A stretch of DNA of 33,422 nt, from assembly GCA_012729955.1 (NCBI GenBank), contig JAAYBX010000094.1:1-33422 (forward strand), in the 5' to 3' direction. A program made the translations under genes and the position numbers. The notes beneath the pieces are model-generated. The model was not told the DNA's origin, searched no databases, and saw nothing but the letters and a program-made list of their open reading frames with translations. This DNA comes from Clostridiaceae bacterium (GTDB lineage: Bacteria; Bacillota; Clostridia; DUPQ01). This document shows positions 16,792 to 32,682 of this stretch, one piece after another; position 1 is the stretch's first letter, and every line of letters starts with the position of its first letter.

Positions 16792-17841
16792 TTATAAATA
16801 CTCAAGAATCTTTTCTGTTATCTGATCTGTTGTGAGATCTCCACCGATATCTTTTGTGAGGTATCGGTTTCTTAATGTTTTTTCAACAGCTGTATCTATC
16901 TTTTTTGCAATAACATCTAGGTCAAATGAATAAGACAGCATCATGGAAACAGACAGAATTGTTGCAATGGGATTAGCCAGATTCTTGCCCGCAATATCAG
17001 GAGCAGAACCATGTATAGGTTCATAAAGTCCTCTTTTTGTATTACCTAATGAAGCTGAAGGCAGCATTCCTATGGAGCCCGTTAGTTGTGAAGCCTCATC
17101 TGACAATATGTCACCGAACATATTTGAAGCAACAATAACATCGAACTGTTCTGGATTCCTTATAAGCTGCATTGCTGCATTATCGACGAGCATATCGTTG
17201 TATTCGACTAATGGGTATTGCTTTGAAAGATTATGCATTACTTCCCTCCAGAGCCTGGAGCTTTCCAAAACATTAGCTTTATCGATACTTGTAACCTTCT
17301 TTCTCCTCTTCATTGCATATTCAAATGCTACCCGGCCGATTCTTTCAATTTCCATCTCGTTGTAGGTTTCAGTATCATATGCTTCAATACCATATTCAGT
17401 CTGGTTTCTTCCTCTTTGACCAAAATATATTCCTCCAGTCAGTTCTCTTACAATTACTATATCAATCTTGGCAGCATCCTTTAAAAGACACCTGTCCTTT
17501 AATGCGGGAAAAAGTTTCACAGGCCGGATATTCGCATACAACCCAAGTTCCTTTCTTAATCCAAGCAAGGCTCTCTCAGGCCTTAGATGGCCTGGCAGAG
17601 TATCCCATTTCGGCCCGCCTACTGCTCCTAACAGAATACTGTCGCATTTAAGTGCTTTTTCAACTGTCACAGCAGGAAGAGGCACATCATATTTATCTAT
17701 TGCTGTTCCTCCTGCACATAATTCCTCGTATACTGCATAATGACCGCTATTATCTAGTGCTTTATTTAAAACCTTCACAGCACAGTCCACTATTTCAGGA
17801 CCTATACCATCTCCCTTAACCAATCCGATTTTAAGCTCCAT
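16792..17841 (-). CDS. leuB: 3-isopropylmalate dehydrogenase LeuB
   Basis: A 349-residue NAD-dependent beta-decarboxylating dehydrogenase with the family start LVKGDGIGPEIV, the substrate loop YFGQRGR, the metal-site region DIVIVRELTGG, and the NAD-site GSAPDIAGKNLANP. It oxidises 3-isopropylmalate to 2-oxoisocaproate in leucine synthesis. With CimA in the same operon it very likely also handles the methylmalate intermediate on the route to 2-oxobutyrate (established for citramalate pathways). AGAGGT precedes ATG 17841. It is the last gene of the ilv-leu operon; no clear terminator lies in the 24 nt before the convergent gene. Confidence 0.97.
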   Translation of the reverse strand: MELKIGLVKGDGIGPEIVDCAVKVLNKALDNSGHYAVYEELCAGGTAIDKYDVPLPAVTVEKALKCDSILLGAVGGPKWDTLPGHLRPERALLGLRKELGLYANIRPVKLFPALKDRCLLKDAAKIDIVIVRELTGGIYFGQRGRNQTEYGIEAYDTETYNEMEIERIGRVAFEYAMKRRKKVTSIDKANVLESSRLWREVMHNLSKQYPLVEYNDMLVDNAAMQLIRNPEQFDVIVASNMFGDILSDEASQLTGSIGMLPSASLGNTKRGLYEPIHGSAPDIAGKNLANPIATILSVSMMLSYSFDLDVIAKKIDTAVEKTLRNRYLTKDIGGDLTTDQITEKILEYL

Positions 17842-17878
17842 ATGTAACCTCTTTTTCTGTAATTTAATACTTTAATTA

Positions 17879-18376
17879 TCAATCATTAAGCATGCCTTTG
17901 TTGACTGCTTCTATCAATCCGCCCGCATTTATTATCTTCCTTATAAATTCAGGAAACGGCTCAATTCTGTATTCCCTGTTCTGTGTATGGTTAATGATAA
18001 TACCTTTTTCAAAATCTGCTTCCACTTCATCACCCTCATTGATCTGTTCAGATGCTTCTGCACATTCAATTATAGGTAAACCGATATTTATAGAGTTTCG
18101 ATAGAAAATCCTTGCAAAATCCTTTGCGATAACCAATGAAATACCGCTTTCCTTTATTGCTATCGGAGCATGTTCTCTGGAAGACCCGCATCCGAAATTC
18201 TTTCCTGCCACCATTATGTCCCCTTTTTGGACTCTCTTTACAAATGTATTATCAATATCTTCCATACAATGGGATGCAAGCTGCTGCTTGTCTGTCGTAT
18301 TGAGATAACGAGCTGGTATGATTACATCTGTATCAACATTATTACCGTATTTAATGACTTTACCTCTTACTGACAT
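17879..18376 (-). CDS. leuD: 3-isopropylmalate dehydratase small subunit LeuD
   Basis: A 165-residue swivel-domain protein of the short LeuD type common in Clostridia and archaea. It has [15 protein letters not shown] at the N-terminus, where the YLxTT loop sets substrate choice, and the signature [11 protein letters not shown] at 61-71. With LeuC it forms the isomerase that converts 2-isopropylmalate to 3-isopropylmalate, and plausibly citramalate to 3-methylmalate. The SD GGGAG lies in the last codons of leuC; the genes are separated by 3 nt, implying translational coupling and balanced subunit production. Confidence 0.96.
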
Positions 18377-18379
18377 TTT

Positions 18380-19657
18380 TTATTCTCCCTTCTTAATAAC
18401 ATCTAAAGGTTGAGCAATCCTGCCTAATATAGCACTTGCTGCTGCAACTTCGGGACTTGCAAGATACACTTCAGATTCGGGATGACCCATCCTGCCGACA
18501 AAATTCCTGTTAGTTGTGGCTACGGCTCTTTCACCCTTTGCTAAAATACCCATATGTCCTCCAAGGCATGGACCGCATGTAGGAGTAGATACTGCGCAAC
18601 CGGAATCAATAAATATCTTTAAAAGACCGAGTTCCATTGCTTCTAAATATATTTTTTGCGTAGCTGGGATAATTATTGTCCTGACTCTTTTAGCAACCTT
18701 CCTGCCTTTCATGATTTTTGCTGCAATAATTAAATCTGATAATCTCCCATTAGTACAGGAACCGATTACAACCTGATCAATTTTTATTTCCGGTATATTA
18801 TCAAATGTTCTCGCATTTTCCGGAAGATGTGGGAATGCGACAGTTGACTGGATTGTACTAAGATCAATATCATATGTTTCATCATATTGCGCATTTTTAT
18901 CGGCTTTATATACAACCGGTTCTTTAGCTCCAACACTATGCAAATATGTTTTTGTTATGTCATCAACTTCAAATATGCCATTCTTCGCTCCTGCTTCAAT
19001 AGCCATATTAGCCATGCAAAGCCTGTCATCAATAGTAAGATTCTTTAATCCGGGACCTTTAAATTCCATGGATTTATATAGCGCGCCAGAAACTCCTATC
19101 ATTCCAATTATGTGCAGTATGACATCTTTTCCTGAAACATAACTGTTAAGCTTTCCCTTTAAATTGAAGCATATTGCAGAAGGTACCTTGAACCATGCTT
19201 TACCTGTAGCCATGGCACATGCCATATCAGTGGAGCCGACTCCTGTTGAAAAGGCTCCCAATGCTCCATATGTACAAGTGTGCGAATCTGCTCCTACAAC
19301 TATATCACCTGATGTTACAAGTCCTTTTTCAGGAAGAAGAGCATGTTCTACGCCCATATCGCCTGTATCATAAAAGTTGCTAATCTGATTATCATCAGAA
19401 AATGTTCTGCACAGTTTGCATTGCTGTGCGGCCTGTATATCCTTGTTAGGAGCAAAATGGTCCATAACCAGAGCAATCTTATCTTTATCAAATACGCTTT
19501 TTACATTTATCTTTTTGTACTCGTTTATGGCGACTGGTGAAGTTATATCATTTCCTAACACCATATCTGTTTTTGCCAGAATAAGCTGTCCTGCAGCGAC
19601 ACTTTCCAATCCTGCGTGTGCAGCCAGTATTTTCTGGGTCATTGTCATTGCTTTCAT
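18380..19657 (-). CDS. leuC: 3-isopropylmalate dehydratase large subunit LeuC
   Basis: A 425-residue aconitase-family protein of the short LeuC type. The three [4Fe-4S] ligands are C301 in GSCTNGR and C361/C364 in [18 protein letters not shown] is the other family signature. I start at ATG 19657 because GTGGAGG at 19663-19669 is its SD. The longer frame beginning at GTG 19669 would start inside that SD. It partners LeuD, encoded 3 nt downstream. The cluster is oxygen-labile in this family, consistent with an anaerobic host. Confidence 0.96.
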
Positions 19658-19668
19658 ATATACCTCCA

Positions 19669-21237
19669 CTATTCGTTCATCGCAAGCTTGTACTCTATGG
19701 AATCAACAAGAGCTATTAAGCTTGCTTCAATTATATCATTTGATACGCCTATGGTAGACCAGCTGCGCTTTTCATCTGCTGTCTCTATAAGAACCCTTAC
19801 TTTAGCAGCAGTCGTACTGTTTTCCTCTAATACACGCACCTTGTAATCTGTGAGCCGTATGTCTTTAATAGCCGGATAAAACACAGTCAGAGATTTTCTT
19901 AATGCTAAATCTAATGCATTTACCGGTCCGTTTCCCATTACTGCTGTTATCTCTTCTTTTCCGTCAACTTCAACTTTTATTGTAGCTGAAGCTGGCATTC
20001 CGCCGACTGGTACTGGAAATTCACCCATCGTCTTGTAAAGCACCAGATTGAAATGAGGTTTATATAAACCCATAGTCCGTTTCACTAATAATTCAAATGA
20101 TGCATCTGCAGCTTCAAAATGATATCCGTAATGCTCCATTTCCTTAAGTTTCTCAAGTATCATGACGACTTCCTTGGAATCTTTTGTAAGGTTCGGAACA
20201 ATTGATGAAGCTTTAGCTAACAAAGTGCTCCTCCCTGCTACTTCGCTCATTAAGAATTTCCGCTTGTTGCCTACAGATTCAGGATCAACATGTTCGAAAC
20301 TTGCATGCACTTTAAGTACTCCATCAATATGCATTCCCCCTTTATGGGCAAATGCTGATTTGCCTACATATGGCTTGTTATTATCAATCTGGGTATTTGA
20401 AATATCCGCAATTCTTCTAGTTACCGAATACAATTGTGAAATATCACCATTACAGTCATAACCCATTTTTAATTTCAGATTTGGAAGTATTACTGAAAGA
20501 TCCGCATTACCGCATCTCTCTCCTATACCAATGAAAGTTCCCTGTACCTGGCTGGCTCCTGCATCAACCGATATCATACTGTTTGCAACAGCACATCCCG
20601 AATCATTATGGCAGTGTATAGATACTTTAGCATTAGGAAATGCAGACACAACCTTCTTTGTAAGTGTTTCTACTTCATTAGGCAGGGTGCCTCCGTTTGT
20701 GTCACACAATGTCAATACATCCGCTCCGCCTTTAATAGCATGTTCAAGGACTTTCATAGCATACTCATTATCTGATTTGTATCCGTCAAAAAAATGTTCC
20801 GCATCAAAAATTACATACTTTTTCAGTGATTTTAAATAAGATACTGTTTCTTCAACAATTGTCAGATTATCATTCAGAGAAATATTTAATACTTTTTTAA
20901 CATGCAGATCCCATGTTTTTCCGAATATAACAAGAGTATCTATTCCTGCATCAATCAAAGCCTGTATGTTTTTATCATTTTTAGGATGCACACCATTTCT
21001 GCAAGTACTGCCAAATGCGCACAATTTGGAATTTTTTAATTCCAGTTGAGCAGCTTTCTGGAAGAATTCCATATCTTTCGGATTAGATCCCGGATTACCC
21101 GCTTCAATATAGTCTATTCCAAAAGAATCAAGAGCTTTAACTATATTGAGCTTATCACTTACAGAAAAAGATATACCTTCTCCTTGCGCGCCGTCTCTTA
21201 ATGTGGAATCCAATATTTCTATTTTTCTTTTATACAT
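19669..21237 (-). CDS. cimA: (R)-citramalate synthase CimA
   Basis: A 522-residue DRE-TIM metallolyase with [13 protein letters not shown] at 9-21, [10 protein letters not shown], the metal-binding HCHND near 203, and a C-terminal LeuA-type dimer domain. The [10 protein letters not shown] variant and overall length match the CimA branch rather than LeuA, which is encoded separately just upstream. It condenses pyruvate with acetyl-CoA to citramalate, the first step of the threonine-independent route to 2-oxobutyrate and isoleucine. GGGAGGG precedes ATG 21237. The stop lies 11 nt before the leuC ATG. Confidence 0.93.
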
Positions 21238-21251
21238 ATGTGAATCCCTCC

Positions 21252-22760
21252 CTATTTCATTTCCAGTATCTTATTGATACCATTTATATATGCCATAATA
21301 CTTGATTCTATTATGTTAGTGGACAATCCTCTTCCTGTAACAATTATATCTTTAGATTTCAACCTTACTGTGACTTCACCTAAAGCATCATTCCCGTCAG
21401 ATACTGAATGAATTGAATAGTTAACCAGTTTTTCGCAGATATTTCCTGTAAGATTGTTTATCACATTATATGCTGCATTTATTGGGCCGTCTCCAAGTGA
21501 AACTCCTTCTATTACATCGCCTTCTTTTGACAATCTTATGACACATGATGATGTGGAATTTCTGGTTGTATGAACATCGAAATGCTCAAGCTTATACATA
21601 CCCAAAAATCTTTCTTTATTATTAACAATAGCTTCAAGATCGCTGTCTGTTATATTTTTCTTTTTGTCAGATAAGTCTTTAACTTTCTCATAATAGTTAG
21701 CCAGTTCATCAGGCGTAAAATCATATCCCATATTTTTGAGCTTGTCAGCAATAGCATGTTTGCCTGAGTGTTTTCCGATAACAAGTTTGTTTTCGACTAT
21801 ACCCAGATCCTCAGCTTTCATAATTTCATATGTCTCTCTTGCAGAAAGCACTCCATGCTGATGTATTCCTGACTCATGCGCAAATGCATTAGCGCCAACT
21901 ATAGGTTTGTTTATAGGAGCTGTCTGGCCAATTATGTTATATACAAGTTTACTGCTTCTGTTTATTTGTTTAGTATCAATATTCGTATACGCATCAAACA
22001 AGGCTTTTCTTGTCCTTAAAGCCATAACAATCTCTTCAAGTGCAGCATTTCCCGCTCTTTCACCAAGTCCATTTACTGTACATTCAACCTGCAAAGCTCC
22101 CGCACGCACTCCAGCCAATGAATTCGCAACAGCCATTCCAAGGTCATTATGGCAGTGTACTGATACAATCACGTTTTCTATGCCGTTCACATTTTCATAA
22201 AGGTATCTGATTCTCTCATAAATCTCCTCTGGCAGCATATATCCTACTGTATCAGGAACATTTATGACAGTTGCTCCAGCCCTGATAGCTGTATTAAACG
22301 CTTTTACCAGAAATTCCTTCTCGCTTCTCATAGCATCTTCTGCAGAAAACTCAACATCAGGACAATAACTTCTTGCATATCTTACTGCATAGTCTATATT
22401 CTCAAGCACTTTTTCAGGAGACATTTTCAGCTTATGCTCCATATGTATGGGTGAGGTTGCCAAAAAAGTATGAATTCTGGGATTTGCAGCACTCTTTATA
22501 GAGTTCCATGCTGCATCGATATCTTTTTGAACTGCTCTGCATAGCGCGGCAACCTGCGAATCCTTAATAGCTTTTGCAATCTTTTCAACAGAAGCGAAAG
22601 CTCCTTCTGAACTTATCGGAAATCCAGCCTCTATACAGTCAACACCCATTAACTCAAGCTGTTTAGCTATTTCAAGTTTTTCTTCAGTATTCATACTGCA
22701 AGAAGGAGCTTGCTCGCCATCACGAAGCGTTGTATCAAATATTCTTATATGTCTCTCCAT
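21252..22760 (-). CDS. leuA: 2-isopropylmalate synthase LeuA
   Basis: A 502-residue enzyme with the catalytic-domain motifs DTTLRDGEQAPSCSM at 9-23, VHCHNDLG near 200, GLGERAGNAALEE, and AFAHESGIHQHG in the linker. A C-terminal allosteric domain of about 120 residues (LGDGPINAAYN) normally senses leucine. It condenses 2-oxoisovalerate with acetyl-CoA in the first leucine-specific step. Length matches the long bacterial LeuA type. GAGAGGAT precedes the ATG, and ilvD ends 11 nt upstream. Confidence 0.97.
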   Translation of the reverse strand: MERHIRIFDTTLRDGEQAPSCSMNTEEKLEIAKQLELMGVDCIEAGFPISSEGAFASVEKIAKAIKDSQVAALCRAVQKDIDAAWNSIKSAANPRIHTFLATSPIHMEHKLKMSPEKVLENIDYAVRYARSYCPDVEFSAEDAMRSEKEFLVKAFNTAIRAGATVINVPDTVGYMLPEEIYERIRYLYENVNGIENVIVSVHCHNDLGMAVANSLAGVRAGALQVECTVNGLGERAGNAALEEIVMALRTRKALFDAYTNIDTKQINRSSKLVYNIIGQTAPINKPIVGANAFAHESGIHQHGVLSARETYEIMKAEDLGIVENKLVIGKHSGKHAIADKLKNMGYDFTPDELANYYEKVKDLSDKKKNITDSDLEAIVNNKERFLGMYKLEHFDVHTTRNSTSSCVIRLSKEGDVIEGVSLGDGPINAAYNVINNLTGNICEKLVNYSIHSVSDGNDALGEVTVRLKSKDIIVTGRGLSTNIIESSIMAYINGINKILEMK

Positions 22761-22771
22761 AATATCCTCTC

Positions 22772-24436
22772 TTAACGGACTATAGCGCCTTTATCTGCTG
22801 AAGAAACGCTTTTTGCATATCTTGCGATATATCCTTTTAGATCATCCTTTTTCTTTATAACCATTGTTTTCTTTCTTTGTTCCATTACACTGCTTTCAAC
22901 ATCCAGATCAAGCTTGTTGTTTGGAATATCGATCGAGATAAAATCTCCTTCCACAACATATGCTATAGGTCCTTTACTTGCTGCTTCATCAGATACATGG
23001 CCGATTGCAGCGCCTCTTGTAGCTCCGGAAAAGCGTCCATCAGTTATTAACGCAACATGCTTATCCAAACCCATTCCTGCAATTGCTGATGTCGGGTTAA
23101 GCATTTCTCTCATACCCGGTCCCCCAGCAGGCCCTTCATATCTTATAACCACAACATCACCTTTTTGTATCTTTCCACTATAGATGGCCGAACAGGCATC
23201 TTCCTCACAATCAAATACCCTTGCAGGACCTCTGTGCTTCATCATCTCTGCAGATACAGCACTTCTTTTGACTACAGAGCCGTTCGGAGCAAGTGAGCCG
23301 AACAAGACTGCAATACCGCCCTTGTCTGAATATGGTTCTTCAATAGGACGAATAACATCACTCCTTGTTACATATGGATGAAACTCTTCCAGATTCTGTT
23401 TCATAGTCTTGGTTGTGCATGTCATTACGTTTTCATTAATAAGATTCTTCTTGCATAATTCGGAAATTACCTTGTATACTCCGCCTGCAGCATCAAGATC
23501 CTGCATATGATATGGACCTGCTGGAGCAAGCTTGCATAAATTTGGTGTTCTGCTGCTTATTGTATTGACCATATTCAAATCCATACTGACTTCTGCCTCA
23601 TTAGCTATCGCCATAAGATGAAGGACAGAATTTGTAGAACAGCCTAAAGCCATATCTACAGTCAGAGCATTCATAAAAGCTTCTTTTGTCATTATGTCCT
23701 TAGGCCGTATGTCTTTTTTCAAAATATCCATAATCATCTCACCTGCTGTCTTTGCAAGAACCAGCCGCTTTGAATATACAGCAGGTATTGAACCATTACC
23801 GCTCAATGCCATACCTAATGCCTCGCTTAAACAATTCATGGAATTAGCTGTAAACATACCTGAACAGGAACCGCAAGTAGGACAGCAGCTTTGCTCTATC
23901 CTCATAAGTTCATCTTCATCTATACTTTTATTCATATATGAACCTACTGCTTCAAACGCACTGTTCAAATCCAGATTAGTTTTGCCATCATTTAAAGAAA
24001 GCATAGGCCCACCTGAAACAAATATACTGGGTACATTGATTCTTGCTGCTACCATAAGCATTGCAGGTACAATCTTGTCACAGTTAGGAATAAAGACTAA
24101 TGCATCAAAAGCATGTGCCATTGCCATGCATTCTATTGAATCAGCAATTACTTCACGTGATGACAGCGAATACTTCATACCAGCATGCCCCATGGCAAGA
24201 CCGTCACATACCCCGATTACATTAAATTCCATTGGTGTACCTTGCGCTGACAAAACCCCATCCTTCACAGCTCTGGCTATATCCTTTAAATGCATATGAC
24301 CAGGTACAACTTCATTATATGAATTAACTATACCTATTAATGGTTTTGCTATCTGACTGTTCGTATATCCCATCGCTTTGAGCAATGATCTTTTCGGGCA
24401 GGCTTCAACACCTTTTTTTATTTTATCGCTGTTCAT
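22772..24436 (-). CDS. ilvD: Dihydroxy-acid dehydratase IlvD
   Basis: A 554-residue IlvD/Edd-family dehydratase that converts dihydroxy acids to 2-oxo acids for valine, leucine and isoleucine. Cluster cysteines are C119 in FIPNCDK and C191 in CGSCSGM. The third position, a Cys in plant-type [2Fe-2S] enzymes, is here Gly46 in NEVVPGH, as in the oxygen-sensitive [4Fe-4S] type of E. coli (comparison from memory). That would fit an anaerobe. GGAAGGAAAGAG lies immediately before ATG 24436. It is the fourth gene of the operon. Confidence 0.97.
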
Positions 24437-24454
24437 CTCTTTCCTTCCTGTTCA

Positions 24455-25456
<1,002 letters not shown>

Positions 25457-25462
25457 TTATAT

Positions 25463-25969
25463 TTATTTATCAGAATCATCAGCCATCGCACCGCGTTTTA
25501 CAGCTAATGCCCCTGCTCTGCACATTTCCAGTATCCCGAACTGGGATACAAACTTTATAAAAGCATCTAATTTGTCAGATTCACCAGTAACTTCCACTGT
25601 CAGTGAATCAAGATTAAAATCTACAACTCTACCCCTGAAAATGTTTACCGATTCGACAATTTCTCCCCTTGTTTTTTTAGTAACTTTTATCTTCAATAAC
25701 AGATGCTCTCTTAATACTGTTTTTTCAGGAGTTAAAAGCTCAATCTTCTTTACATCATGAAGTTTATCCAGCTGCTTGGTTATCTGTTCCTGAACTGCTT
25801 CATCACCTCTTGCTATTATTGTCATCCTTGAGAAAAGAGGATCTTCTGTAACAGCGACATTTAAACTGTCTATGTTAAAATTCCTTCTGGAAAACAAACC
25901 AGATATCCTAGTAAGAACACCAGCATGATTTGCTACTAATACGCTTAATATGAACTGTCCTTTTTTCAT
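25463..25969 (-). CDS. ilvN: Acetolactate synthase regulatory subunit IlvN/IlvH
   Basis: A 168-residue small subunit with the N-terminal ACT domain (VLVANHAGVLTRISGLFSRR near 8-29) that normally binds valine for feedback inhibition, followed by the second ACT-like domain (LLKIKVTKKTRGEIV onward). It activates and regulates the ThDP-dependent IlvB. AAAGGGG precedes ATG 25969, 13 nt after ilvB. Confidence 0.96.
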   Translation of the reverse strand: MKKGQFILSVLVANHAGVLTRISGLFSRRNFNIDSLNVAVTEDPLFSRMTIIARGDEAVQEQITKQLDKLHDVKKIELLTPEKTVLREHLLLKIKVTKKTRGEIVESVNIFRGRVVDFNLDSLTVEVTGESDKLDAFIKFVSQFGILEMCRAGALAVKRGAMADDSDK

Positions 25970-25982
25970 AATTTACCCCTTT

Positions 25983-27644
25983 CTATCTTGTTATAATATT
26001 GTCTATGGATCCCCCTGGCGGTATCATAGGCAGAACTTTTTCATCCTGGCTTATTGAACAGTCAATTACAACCGGGCCTTGTGTTTTAAAAGCTGTATCT
26101 AATGCTTCTTTAAGCATCTTAATATCCATTACTCTGAATCCTGTTGCTCCAAAAGCTTCTGCAAGCTTTACAAAGTCAGTTTTCCGGTTAAGTGTAGTCT
26201 GCGAGTATCTCTGGTCATAGAATGTATTCTGCCACTGTCTTACCATGCCAAGTACCCCGTTATTGAATATAAGAATAACAAGCGGCAGATTGTTTGATAC
26301 AGCAGTTGCCATTTCGTTAAGATTCATACCAAAAGATCCATCTCCAGTAAACAAGACAGTTTTTTTACATCCTGATGCGAAACACCCTCCAATAGCTGCT
26401 CCCATGCCAAAACCCATTGTACCTAAACCTCCGGATGTAAGATAAGTACGAGGTTTTTTAAATCTGTAATACTGAGCGACCCACATCTGGTGCTGGCCGA
26501 CATCAGTTGCGACAATTGTATTTTCATCAGTATATTCCATTACTTTTTCAATAATATCTTTAGGATGCATTACTCCGTCTTTTACAAACTGTATTCCCTC
26601 CTGTATCCGCATCTGCTGGATTTTATCCATCCACTGGGTATGCGTCTTTTTCTCCAGCTTTGCTAAAAGTTTAGTAAGAACCGTTTTAACATCCCCGATT
26701 AGGCCGAAATATGCCGAGATGTTTTTATCTATCTCGGCAGGGTCAATATCAATATGAACAACTTTTGCATACTGTGTATATCTGGATTTATTACCTGTCG
26801 CACGGTCGGAAAAACGTACACCAGCAGCAATTATGAGATCTGCTTCTGAATTTGCTTTTGTAGATGCATATCTGCCATGCATTCCTGTCATTCCAAGCCA
26901 ATAAGGATTATCTGCAGACACTGCTGAAAGGCCCATCATGGAAAATCCGATAGGAGAATCTATTTTTGCAGCTAATTTTTCAATTTCCTCTCCTGCCTGT
27001 GATATCACGACTCCTCCGCCGCAGTATATATATGGCCTTTCAGATTCAGAAATCAATTTCGCTACCTGTTCAAGCTGCTTTTCCGTTACAGAGCATATTC
27101 TTTCCATTTTTTCAGGCTTTTTATTTTCGAAATCACATACAGCAGTCTGTACATCCTTGGGAACATCAATCAGTACAGGACCAGGCCTGCCTGATTGAGC
27201 AATTTTAAATGCTTCCCTTATCACATCAGCAAGTTCGTTTACGTCCTTTACTATATAGTTATGCTTGGTTATAGGCATTGTAATTCCTGTTATGTCCACT
27301 TCCTGAAAACTATCTTTTCCTAGTAATGGGAGAGCTACATTTCCAGTTATTGCTACAATAGGTGATGAATCCAGATATGCGTTAGCAATCCCGGTTACGA
27401 GATTTGTTGCACCAGGTCCTGAAGTAGCTATGACAACCCCAGCTTTACCAGTTACTCTTGCATAGGCATCAGCAGCATGAGCAGCTCCTTGTTCGTGAGC
27501 GCTTATCACATGATGGATTTTATCACTATTCCTGTAAAGCTCATCATAAATATTCAATACTGCTCCTCCAGGATAACCGAATACAGTATCGCATCCCTGT
27601 TCTATAAGCGTTTCAATTATTACTTTGGTTCCTGTCGCTTTCAT
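25983..27644 (-). CDS. ilvB: Acetolactate synthase catalytic subunit IlvB
   Basis: A 553-residue ThDP enzyme. The cofactor-activating Glu is E51 in SAHEQGAAH, and the C-terminal ThDP/Mg motif runs from GDGSFGMNLNE to NNGVLGMVRQWQ. It makes acetolactate from pyruvate, and acetohydroxybutyrate from pyruvate plus 2-oxobutyrate, the entry to all three branched-chain amino acids. ATG 27644 has a strong CAGGAGG. It is the first structural gene and lies only 17 nt after the attenuator terminator U-run, so its transcription depends on antitermination in the leader. Confidence 0.97.
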   Translation of the reverse strand: MKATGTKVIIETLIEQGCDTVFGYPGGAVLNIYDELYRNSDKIHHVISAHEQGAAHAADAYARVTGKAGVVIATSGPGATNLVTGIANAYLDSSPIVAITGNVALPLLGKDSFQEVDITGITMPITKHNYIVKDVNELADVIREAFKIAQSGRPGPVLIDVPKDVQTAVCDFENKKPEKMERICSVTEKQLEQVAKLISESERPYIYCGGGVVISQAGEEIEKLAAKIDSPIGFSMMGLSAVSADNPYWLGMTGMHGRYASTKANSEADLIIAAGVRFSDRATGNKSRYTQYAKVVHIDIDPAEIDKNISAYFGLIGDVKTVLTKLLAKLEKKTHTQWMDKIQQMRIQEGIQFVKDGVMHPKDIIEKVMEYTDENTIVATDVGQHQMWVAQYYRFKKPRTYLTSGGLGTMGFGMGAAIGGCFASGCKKTVLFTGDGSFGMNLNEMATAVSNNLPLVILIFNNGVLGMVRQWQNTFYDQRYSQTTLNRKTDFVKLAEAFGATGFRVMDIKMLKEALDTAFKTQGPVVIDCSISQDEKVLPMIPPGGSIDNIITR

Positions 27645-31029: not shown

Positions 31030-31059
31030 TTGACAGCAAAGCGCTTTGCGATGTAAAAT
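31030..31059 (+). promoter_or_regulatory. Promoter of pyrG with embedded palindrome
   Basis: TTGACA (31030-31035), 18-nt spacer, TAAAAT (31054-31059). The spacer contains the perfect 14-bp palindrome GCAAAGCGCTTTGC at 31036-31049. A protein bound there would cover the space between -35 and -10, so it looks like a repressor operator. The leader would be under 20 nt, so the CTP-sensing attenuation known for Bacillus pyrG seems not to apply here. Confidence 0.7.
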
Positions 31060-31083
31060 AAAAAAAACCGTATGGGGTGGGAA

Positions 31084-32682
31084 ATGGCAATAAAACATAT
31101 ATTCGTAACTGGCGGCGTCGTATCCGGATTAGGTAAGGGAATAACAGCCGCTTCTTTAGGCAGGCTTTTAAAAACTATGGGTTATAAAGTAGCTCTTCAA
31201 AAATTCGATCCATATATCAATGTAGATCCTGGGATTATGAGCCCATATCAGCATGGAGAAGTTTACCTGACAGAAGATGGAATAGATACAGATCTGGATT
31301 TAGGCCATTACGAAAGATTTATTGACGAAGACCTTGATTATTTAAGCAGTTTTACTGCTGGTAAAATATATGACACAATACGTAAAAGAGAATATGCCGG
31401 CACATACGGAGGAGGCACAATTCAAGTCATTCCCCATATCACCAATGAAATTAAAAGCCTTATATATAAAAATGCCGAACAAAAAGGAGTACAGGTCGCA
31501 ATAACAGAAATTGGCGGAACTGTAGGAGATATTGAGTCACAGCCTTTTTTAGAAGCAATACGGCAGGTAGGATTGGAAAAAGGCCATGAAAATGTCCTTT
31601 ATGTCCATGTCACTCTTCTTCCTTACCTGAAAGTTTCAGATGAGTTAAAGACTAAGCCTACCCAGCACTCGGTAAAAGAGCTTAGAAGCCTGGGAATTCA
31701 GCCGGATATAATCGTATGTCGTTCTGAAAGACATATTACCAAACAGATAAAAGATAAAATCGCATTATTCTGTGATGTTGATCCCGCATGCGTCATTGAA
31801 AATATTGATGCATCAAGCATATACGAAATTCCTGTTCTGCTTGCTAATGAAGGATTTGCTGATATTGCCGTGAAGAAGCTTAATCTTAAGAAGCGTAATC
31901 TGGATTTATCAGAATGGAATAAAATTATTTATGAGCTCAATAATCCTCAGATGAATGTCAAAATAGCTTTGGTTGGTCAGTATGTTGCATTCCATGAAGC
32001 ATATCTGTCTGTAAGTGAAGCATTGAAGCACGGAGGTTTCTATAATCATTCCTCAGTAGAAATCATATGGATAGATCCTACTATAATTAATGATGATAAT
32101 ATGGATGATGTTTTCAAAGGAGCAAGCGGTATACTTGTACCAGCAGGATTTGGAGACAAAGGTATTGAGGGTATGATAAAATCTGCCGGGTATGCAAGAA
32201 AAAACAACATTCCATATATGGGTTTTTGTTTAGGTATGCATACTGCAGTAATTGATTTTGCCAGAAATGTATGCGAAATGCCTGAAGCCCAGAGCCAGGA
32301 ATTCGATACTAACGCTAAATACAATGTCATTATGTTAAGCAAAAATGAAGGTCGTACGGGAGGTTATGTTTGTGAACCTGCAAAAAACTCCATATTATGC
32401 GAAATATATGGCAGCTCCAAACCTTTCTCTGAGAGGCATAAGCATAAATATGAGATAAATAGTGATTATTCAGATATAATGGAACAAAAAGGTCTTAAGG
32501 TAAGCGGCGTAAACAAGGATCTTATTGATGTAATGGAACTTGAGGGACATCCCTTCTATATCCTGGCACAGTTCCAGCCGGAATTTAAATCGCGTCCCAC
32601 CAACCCGCATCCTCTGATGAAAGCATTTATAGCTGCTGCAATAAATCATATGGAAAAGGATAACAATGAATACGGACAATGA
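31084..32682 (+). CDS. pyrG: CTP synthase PyrG with altered glutaminase site
   Basis: The 532-residue protein has a normal-looking amidoligase half (HIFVTGGVVSGLGKG, QKFDPYINVDPG, LDLGHYERF, GGTVGDIESQPF) that makes CTP from UTP, ATP and ammonia. The C-terminal glutaminase half keeps the nucleophile C382, E406 and triad Glu E500, but has Q498 where the catalytic His should be (QFQPE, codon CAG at 32575-32577). It also has A354 in PAGFG (usually PGGFG), H386 in CLGMH (usually CLGMQ) and K455 in RHKHKYE (usually RHRHRYE). Ammonia-dependent activity is likely; glutamine use is doubtful. I start at ATG 31084 with GGGGTGG upstream; an in-frame ATG at 31072 lacks an SD. The next gene overlaps its 3' end. 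Confidence 0.93.
   Translation: MAIKHIFVTGGVVSGLGKGITAASLGRLLKTMGYKVALQKFDPYINVDPGIMSPYQHGEVYLTEDGIDTDLDLGHYERFIDEDLDYLSSFTAGKIYDTIRKREYAGTYGGGTIQVIPHITNEIKSLIYKNAEQKGVQVAITEIGGTVGDIESQPFLEAIRQVGLEKGHENVLYVHVTLLPYLKVSDELKTKPTQHSVKELRSLGIQPDIIVCRSERHITKQIKDKIALFCDVDPACVIENIDASSIYEIPVLLANEGFADIAVKKLNLKKRNLDLSEWNKIIYELNNPQMNVKIALVGQYVAFHEAYLSVSEALKHGGFYNHSSVEIIWIDPTIINDDNMDDVFKGASGILVPAGFGDKGIEGMIKSAGYARKNNIPYMGFCLGMHTAVIDFARNVCEMPEAQSQEFDTNAKYNVIMLSKNEGRTGGYVCEPAKNSILCEIYGSSKPFSERHKHKYEINSDYSDIMEQKGLKVSGVNKDLIDVMELEGHPFYILAQFQPEFKSRPTNPHPLMKAFIAAAINHMEKDNNEYGQ

Follow-up and report, generated by a model that had tools for sequence, protein, structure and literature searches.

CTP synthase (CTPS) is treated as a uniformly glutamine-dependent, GTP-activated enzyme, and in a survey of 800 genomes, which counted domains and not residues, CTP synthetase was fused to a glutaminase in 100% of cases and was never found without it (PMC3376133). 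In the described enzymes, R468 and R470 lie in the GTP cleft, the CTP synthase-specific L13 motif GG(T/S)(M/L)RLG is required for GTP activation of glutamine hydrolysis, and L109 has a role in coupling through the NH3 tunnel (PMC9138612). Exogenous NH3 enters by a hole beside the GTP site, which is blocked by bound GTP (PMC9138612). Single mutations of G352, R429, R356 or T438 in the E. coli or L. lactis enzymes impair glutamine-dependent synthesis and largely spare NH3-dependent synthesis; in E. coli G352P and R429A and in L. lactis T431V, glutamine-dependent activity is lost and NH3-dependent CTP synthesis is kept (PMC9138612). A natural ammonia-only CTP synthase was not reported in the open-access literature that was searched. 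Two other enzymes offer parallels. Carbamoyl-phosphate synthetase I (CPS I) of land vertebrates retains a class I glutamine amidotransferase (GAT) domain, whose triad is incomplete, and works with free ammonia, and a similar shift has converged in an ammonia-adapted fish (PMC7657897). The single-domain NAD synthetase NadE carries out an amidotransferase-type reaction on ammonia without a glutaminase (PMC3376133).

The window, which is the whole stretch of 33,422 nucleotides that was analysed and comes from an uncultured anaerobic bacterium, encoded a protein, PyrG2, that can be set beside these systems. The gene and its surroundings were as follows.

31030..31059, + strand: sigma-70-type promoter of pyrG2, TTGACA-18-TAAAAT, 11/12 consensus match
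31084..32682, + strand: pyrG2, CTP synthase with a degenerate glutaminase domain, 532 aa, equivalog matches to NF003792/TIGR00337
32666..33422, + strand: membrane-anchored TPR protein continuing beyond the window end, TPR Pfam matches

PyrG2 scored 695.2 bits against TIGR00337 (curated equivalog cut-off, 462.75) and 726.7 bits against NF003792 (cut-off, 308), exceeding both. It shares the two-domain architecture, the synthase-site residues and the CTP feedback residues with the PyrG proteins of E. coli (PDB 1S1M) and T. thermophilus (1VCO), and the fold of its model was alike (TM 0.95-0.96). It differs from both in that the triad His is replaced by Gln, the oxyanion Gly by Ala and R468/R470 by Lys, while L13 is deleted and L109 is lost. 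By sequence, fold and synthase site PyrG2 is a PyrG, but the features that define the glutamine-hydrolysing CTP synthases are missing from it. Like CPS I, it keeps a class I GAT domain whose triad is incomplete, although the synthases are different and CPS I has typically lost the Cys, whereas PyrG2 has lost the His and kept the Cys; the use of free ammonia is proven for CPS I and inferred for PyrG2. NadE resembles PyrG2 as it is read below, but has no glutaminase domain altogether. In the laboratory mutants G352P, R429A and T431V (PMC9138612), which are NH3-only or prefer NH3, changes in the oxyanion and GTP loops lower or abolish the use of glutamine and leave the use of NH3 intact, much as proposed for PyrG2; those are engineered single changes, whereas several changes are combined naturally in PyrG2.

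The pyrG2 reading frame was open from the ATG at 31084 to the stop at 32682. An alternative ATG at 31072 was unusable in the sister species, in which a TGA was found in that frame. Two orthologs, 90% and 83% identical to PyrG2, were present in sister species of the same genus, represented by the independent public assemblies ADurb.Bin146 and STD2_39. The promoter and leader, with the block TTTGCGATGTAAAATAAAAAAAACCGTATGGGGTG and the 35 nt around the -10 box, were identical in all three species. Between the window and the nearest ortholog, the synthase half showed 98.9% identity with a dN/dS of 0.011, and the GAT half 81% identity with a dN/dS of 0.049; in the canonical copies of these two species, the two halves were 97-98% and 90-93% identical, respectively. 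A pseudogene was rejected on the basis of the open 532-aa frame, these low dN/dS values in both halves and the conserved promoter. Selection thus acts on the gene, which is very probably transcribed, expression being deduced from the conservation of the promoter. At 31054-31075, after the -10 box, an A8-CC-G stretch was identical in the three species; an A tract followed by C at the likely start site might, speculatively, recall other pyr genes, in which CTP is sensed through reiterative transcription.

The start of the TPR gene overlapped the pyrG2 stop by 17 nt, and the two genes are therefore probably co-transcribed. The order of the genes around pyrG2 was conserved: in both sisters, pyrG2 was followed by the TPR gene and an RluA-like gene (named from its translation), and zinc-ribbon genes lay 5' of pyrG2 in STD2_39 as in the window. 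The TPR gene was present in all four genomes of the genus, including the fourth member (G002), in which the locus was present without pyrG2; pyrG2 is therefore not essential in the genus. A candidate pyrG2 remnant in G002 was discarded, as the matching bases overlapped the start of the TPR gene and its ribosome-binding site, and for the same reason deletion and original absence are indistinguishable there.

To describe the protein, residues were numbered according to E. coli PyrG (Ec) aligned to PyrG2, and 126 aligned CTP synthases with intact Cys/His served as the comparison set. The features within pyrG2 were as follows.

31084..31884, + strand: synthase (amidoligase) domain, residues 1-267, intact, PF06418 at 399 bits
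31390..31422, + strand: L4 loop (Ec 102-112), YLGAT to YGGGT, L109 to G109, by alignment
32143..32145, + strand: A354 (Ec G351, oxyanion strand), Ala in 3/3 orthologs, Gly in 125/126 intact enzymes
32152..32178, + strand: lid L11 (Ec 354-362; name from PMC9138612), K359 in place of R356, by alignment
32227..32229, + strand: C382, the nucleophile position (Ec C379), kept, by alignment
32239..32241, + strand: H386 (Ec Q383), variable among orthologs (H/Q/H), by alignment
32335..32355, + strand: deletion site of the L13 "wing" (Ec 429-439), GGTMRLG motif gone, by alignment
32440..32448, + strand: K453-H-K455 (Ec R468-H-R470), GTP cleft, both Arg in 126/126 intact enzymes
32575..32583, + strand: Q498-P-E500, Gln in place of the triad His (Ec H515), Glu (Ec E517) kept, by alignment

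In the synthase half, 75 of the 78 near-invariant columns were kept. The P-loop K18, K40, D72, H75, H57, E142, K189/K191 and K225 were present in PyrG2, and equivalents of K18, K40, D72, H75, H57, E140, E149, K187/K189, K223 and F227 were all found; every residue of the ATP, UTP and CTP sites that was checked in the alignment was intact. The gate H57, the K-x-K-P-T-Q-H segment and, for CTP feedback, E149, R158 and F227 were likewise retained. The predicted structure had a pLDDT of 92 and a TM of 0.96 to E. coli CTPS, and by this match the GAT domain is still folded.

The GAT domain kept 44 of 57 near-invariant columns. Its Cys-His-Glu triad was incomplete in all three orthologs, with the Cys and Glu in place and the His replaced by Gln498 (codon CAG, 32575-32577). 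The GTP-activation motif GG(T/S)(M/L)RLG, whose GG is present in 125/126 intact enzymes, was deleted, and both GTP-cleft arginines were Lys. H515, C379, R468 and R470 were each found in 126/126 of the intact CTP synthases and G351 in 125/126; owing to this near-invariance, the changes in PyrG2 go well beyond chance. Q498, A354, K453/K455 and the L13 deletion were common to all three orthologs, and the change of Q383 was not. The first-pass annotation had listed four substitutions (Q498 for H515, H386 for Q383, A354 for G351 and K455 for R470) with the nucleophile Cys and the synthase half intact, and the alignment contained all four along with the nucleophile C382 and the conserved synthase half. 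Its view of the Q383 to His change as a loss is the weakest of the four: the change is there in PyrG2, but Gln is found in the 90% ortholog, and His in 7/126 of the intact enzymes. R470, described there as a carboxylate-binding Arg, lies instead with R468 in the GTP cleft (PMC9138612). Additional changes were R468 to K453, R356 to K359, L109 to G109 and the deletion of the L13 "wing". Judged from these residues, glutaminase activity has almost certainly been lost in PyrG2.

Comparable proteins were found in other bacteria. About 85,000 species genomes were scanned with a DNA signature of Q-[FY]-Q-P-E in a PyrG context, and of the 23 matches, 19 were PyrG loci, one was a PyrG remnant and 3 arose by chance. 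The 19 His-to-Gln loci belonged to about 14 lineages, including several Clostridia, Gallicola, an Erysipelothrix-like family, Cloacimonadota, Synergistaceae, Chloroflexi, Bacteroidetes and Rubellimicrobium; since the scan itself selected for Gln, it gives no measure of how common Gln is relative to other replacements. Sampled genomes added two further lineages, G176 (His and Cys both gone) and G247 (Cys to Ser), giving about 16 lineages with such glutaminase-dead PyrGs in total. Among 21 non-redundant dead sequences, Cys379 was lost (G or S) in 11. The L13 motif was broken in 16/21, G351 was lost in 10/21 and R468/R470 in 7/21, versus 1/125, 1/125 and 0/125 of the intact enzymes, respectively; for the co-loss of L13, G351 and L109, strictly independent pairs were too few for significance in sign tests (L13 median p 0.06).

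In synthase-half trees, whose long branches make several placements unsure, 149 sequences gave 13 changes of state, at least 8 of them forced by supported branches, and 58 sequences gave 12 changes, at least 7 forced by well-supported branches. A single origin of the dead state appeared in 0/200 bootstrap trees of the 58-sequence set, and a single ancient origin is thus unsupported. Read from the sequences, the glutaminase was also lost independently in about twelve further lineages of bacteria. The nearest retrieved relatives were canonical for the dead PyrGs of Cloacimonadota and of the Erysipelothrix-like family. In Cloacimonadota (L146 and relatives), the closest relative of the dead PyrG already carried CLGLH and a changed lid with the triad His kept, which looks like an intermediate step. 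Spread by phage was addressed by a weak test, in which the exact DNA pattern had no match in viral contigs. A PyrG remnant in Verrucomicrobia bog_1451 (L050) had its first residues fused to its last and is likely an internal deletion or a pseudogene. In another PyrG (L032, in G022), a long insertion rich in Ala and Ser separates the synthase half from the Cys region of the GAT domain.

Re-searching with the PyrG family model revealed no other full-length PyrG in eight of the dead-copy genomes, among them G176, which is 96% complete with 0% contamination. The dead copy, as the only full-length PyrG, is therefore probably the source of CTP in those genomes. The record titles of many dead-PyrG genomes, read from isolate names, pointed to digesters, landfill leachate, termite guts and mammalian guts, habitats that are consistent with high ammonium, with sampling bias possible.

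In the genome of the window, PyrG2 is not the only PyrG. This draft assembly of 202 contigs from a strain mixture also contained canonical pyrG in two pieces, the N-terminal part on the short contig C200 and the C-terminal part on the short contig C195, which kept CLGMQ, GGTMRLG, RHRHRYE and QFHPEF. The two differed by 76 nt over 367 shared codons and therefore probably derive from co-occurring strains. Canonical pyrG was flanked by a conserved hypothetical gene upstream and groES-groEL downstream, the same as at the intact locus of the sister species. A second pyrG, for which the first-pass annotation had proposed to look, is thus encoded elsewhere, and no switch of the entire organism has taken place. 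In the match list of a class-wide sample (146 genomes at least 95% complete), two full-length PyrGs occurred only in the genus of the window. A genome-wide loss of glutaminases was excluded as well: CarA, HisH and PdxT (named by sequence) keep their Cys and His, so the loss is specific to PyrG2.

Taken together, PyrG2 is likely to be a real, expressed CTP synthase paralog whose GAT domain is a folded, non-hydrolysing scaffold and which would make CTP from UTP, ATP and free NH3. Its best reading is that of a feedback-controlled, ammonia-dependent CTP synthase analogous to CPS I. The switch of function suggested in the first-pass annotation stands as far as the loss of the glutaminase with the synthase kept is concerned, given the three orthologs, the deleted GTP motif and the recurrent loss; free ammonia is its most plausible nitrogen donor in the cell. 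In this mechanism, NH3 would use the vestibule between the GAT and synthase domains as its way in, the route of exogenous NH3 in E. coli CTPS, and then pass the conserved H57 gate. The loss of the L13 wing, R468/R470 and R356 would release the enzyme from gating by GTP, which could then no longer plug the NH3 inlet; the CTP feedback site is kept. Removal of the triad His and the GTP loops is what would be expected of a non-glutaminase enzyme that gains from an open inlet for NH3, because the NH3 inlet is blocked by GTP and the mutants spare NH3-dependent synthesis. CTP synthesis from NH3 is suggested by the intact synthase site and by lineages in which such a form is the sole CTP synthase. PyrG2 would work beside the normal glutamine-dependent PyrG, using ammonia in vivo and escaping GTP inhibition, and would probably be of benefit in ammonium-rich surroundings.

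An unlikely alternative is that the main role of PyrG2 is that of a regulatory or structural subunit, which tunes canonical PyrG in mixed tetramers or filaments and whose own catalysis is secondary. CTPS filaments are known (PMC9138612), and dead and canonical copies occur together in five genomes (G000, G003, G047, G052 and G057), but PyrG2 conserves the synthase active site in full as well as the site of CTP feedback, and the degenerate form is the only copy in many lineages. Less probable still is a dispensable paralog with no special ammonia role, its glutaminase drifting under relaxed constraint toward loss. The GAT half does evolve faster than in the canonical copies and G002 lacks the gene at its locus, yet selection on both halves remains strong, the promoter is conserved and dead forms are the only PyrG elsewhere. 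It is slightly more doubtful again that the glutaminase was reorganised, with C382 served by a new base such as H386, or that NH3 is delivered by another glutaminase protein. C382 and E500 are kept, and a His four residues after the Cys recurs in dead lineages (8/21). However, the 90% ortholog has Gln at 386, a His at Ec 383 is also found in 7/126 intact enzymes and in lineages without the Cys (GMGMH, SMGMH, GLGMH), and PyrG2 also lacks the L13 motif and the two arginines of the GTP cleft. H386 was accordingly rejected as a general new triad base, and the "reorganised glutamine site" offered in the first-pass annotation is disfavoured, because the residue varies among orthologs and recurs in Cys-less lineages. 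An assembly or sequencing artefact at the changed codons is of negligible probability despite the draft state of the assembly and the split of canonical pyrG, since the same changes, Q383 excepted, occur in both independent sister assemblies with ordinary synonymous divergence; these orthologs, the conserved promoter and the strong purifying selection rule out error as well as pseudogene.

Beyond this genus, the evidence leans toward natural ammonia-only CTP synthases as a recurrent, convergent class in ammonium-rich anaerobic habitats, present as a second or only copy with the glutaminase (His to Gln, often Cys to Gly/Ser) and the GTP-gating loops disabled. If true, such a class would overturn the assumption that bacterial CTP synthesis always needs glutamine and GTP, and glutaminase-dead forms in nature would show that the choice of nitrogen donor evolves in pyrimidine synthesis. 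The dead PyrGs would be a natural set of mutations for the study of the NH3 tunnel and GTP gating, and they would show that annotation pipelines wrongly label these proteins "glutamine hydrolyzing". If confirmed, enzymes of the PyrG2 type should be insensitive to DON and other glutamine analogues and would offer ammonia-driven CTP production for biocatalysis.

Two further observations were made. No PyrG match was found in 36 of the 146 Clostridia-class genomes at least 95% complete (e.g. G015, G016, G023, G027 and G034) or in 30 of 78 genomes of the Erysipelothrix-like family, and a re-search of 12 of those 36 genomes with PF06418 gave 0/12 matches versus 14/14 in control genomes; CTP synthase may be absent from many anaerobes, or an unknown replacement may stand in for it. 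In the window itself, a branched-chain amino acid biosynthesis cluster occupied 16792-27644 on the - strand, with ilvB, ilvN, ilvC, ilvD, leuA and cimA, then aconitase-family (leuC/leuD-like) and isopropylmalate/isocitrate dehydrogenase-family genes.
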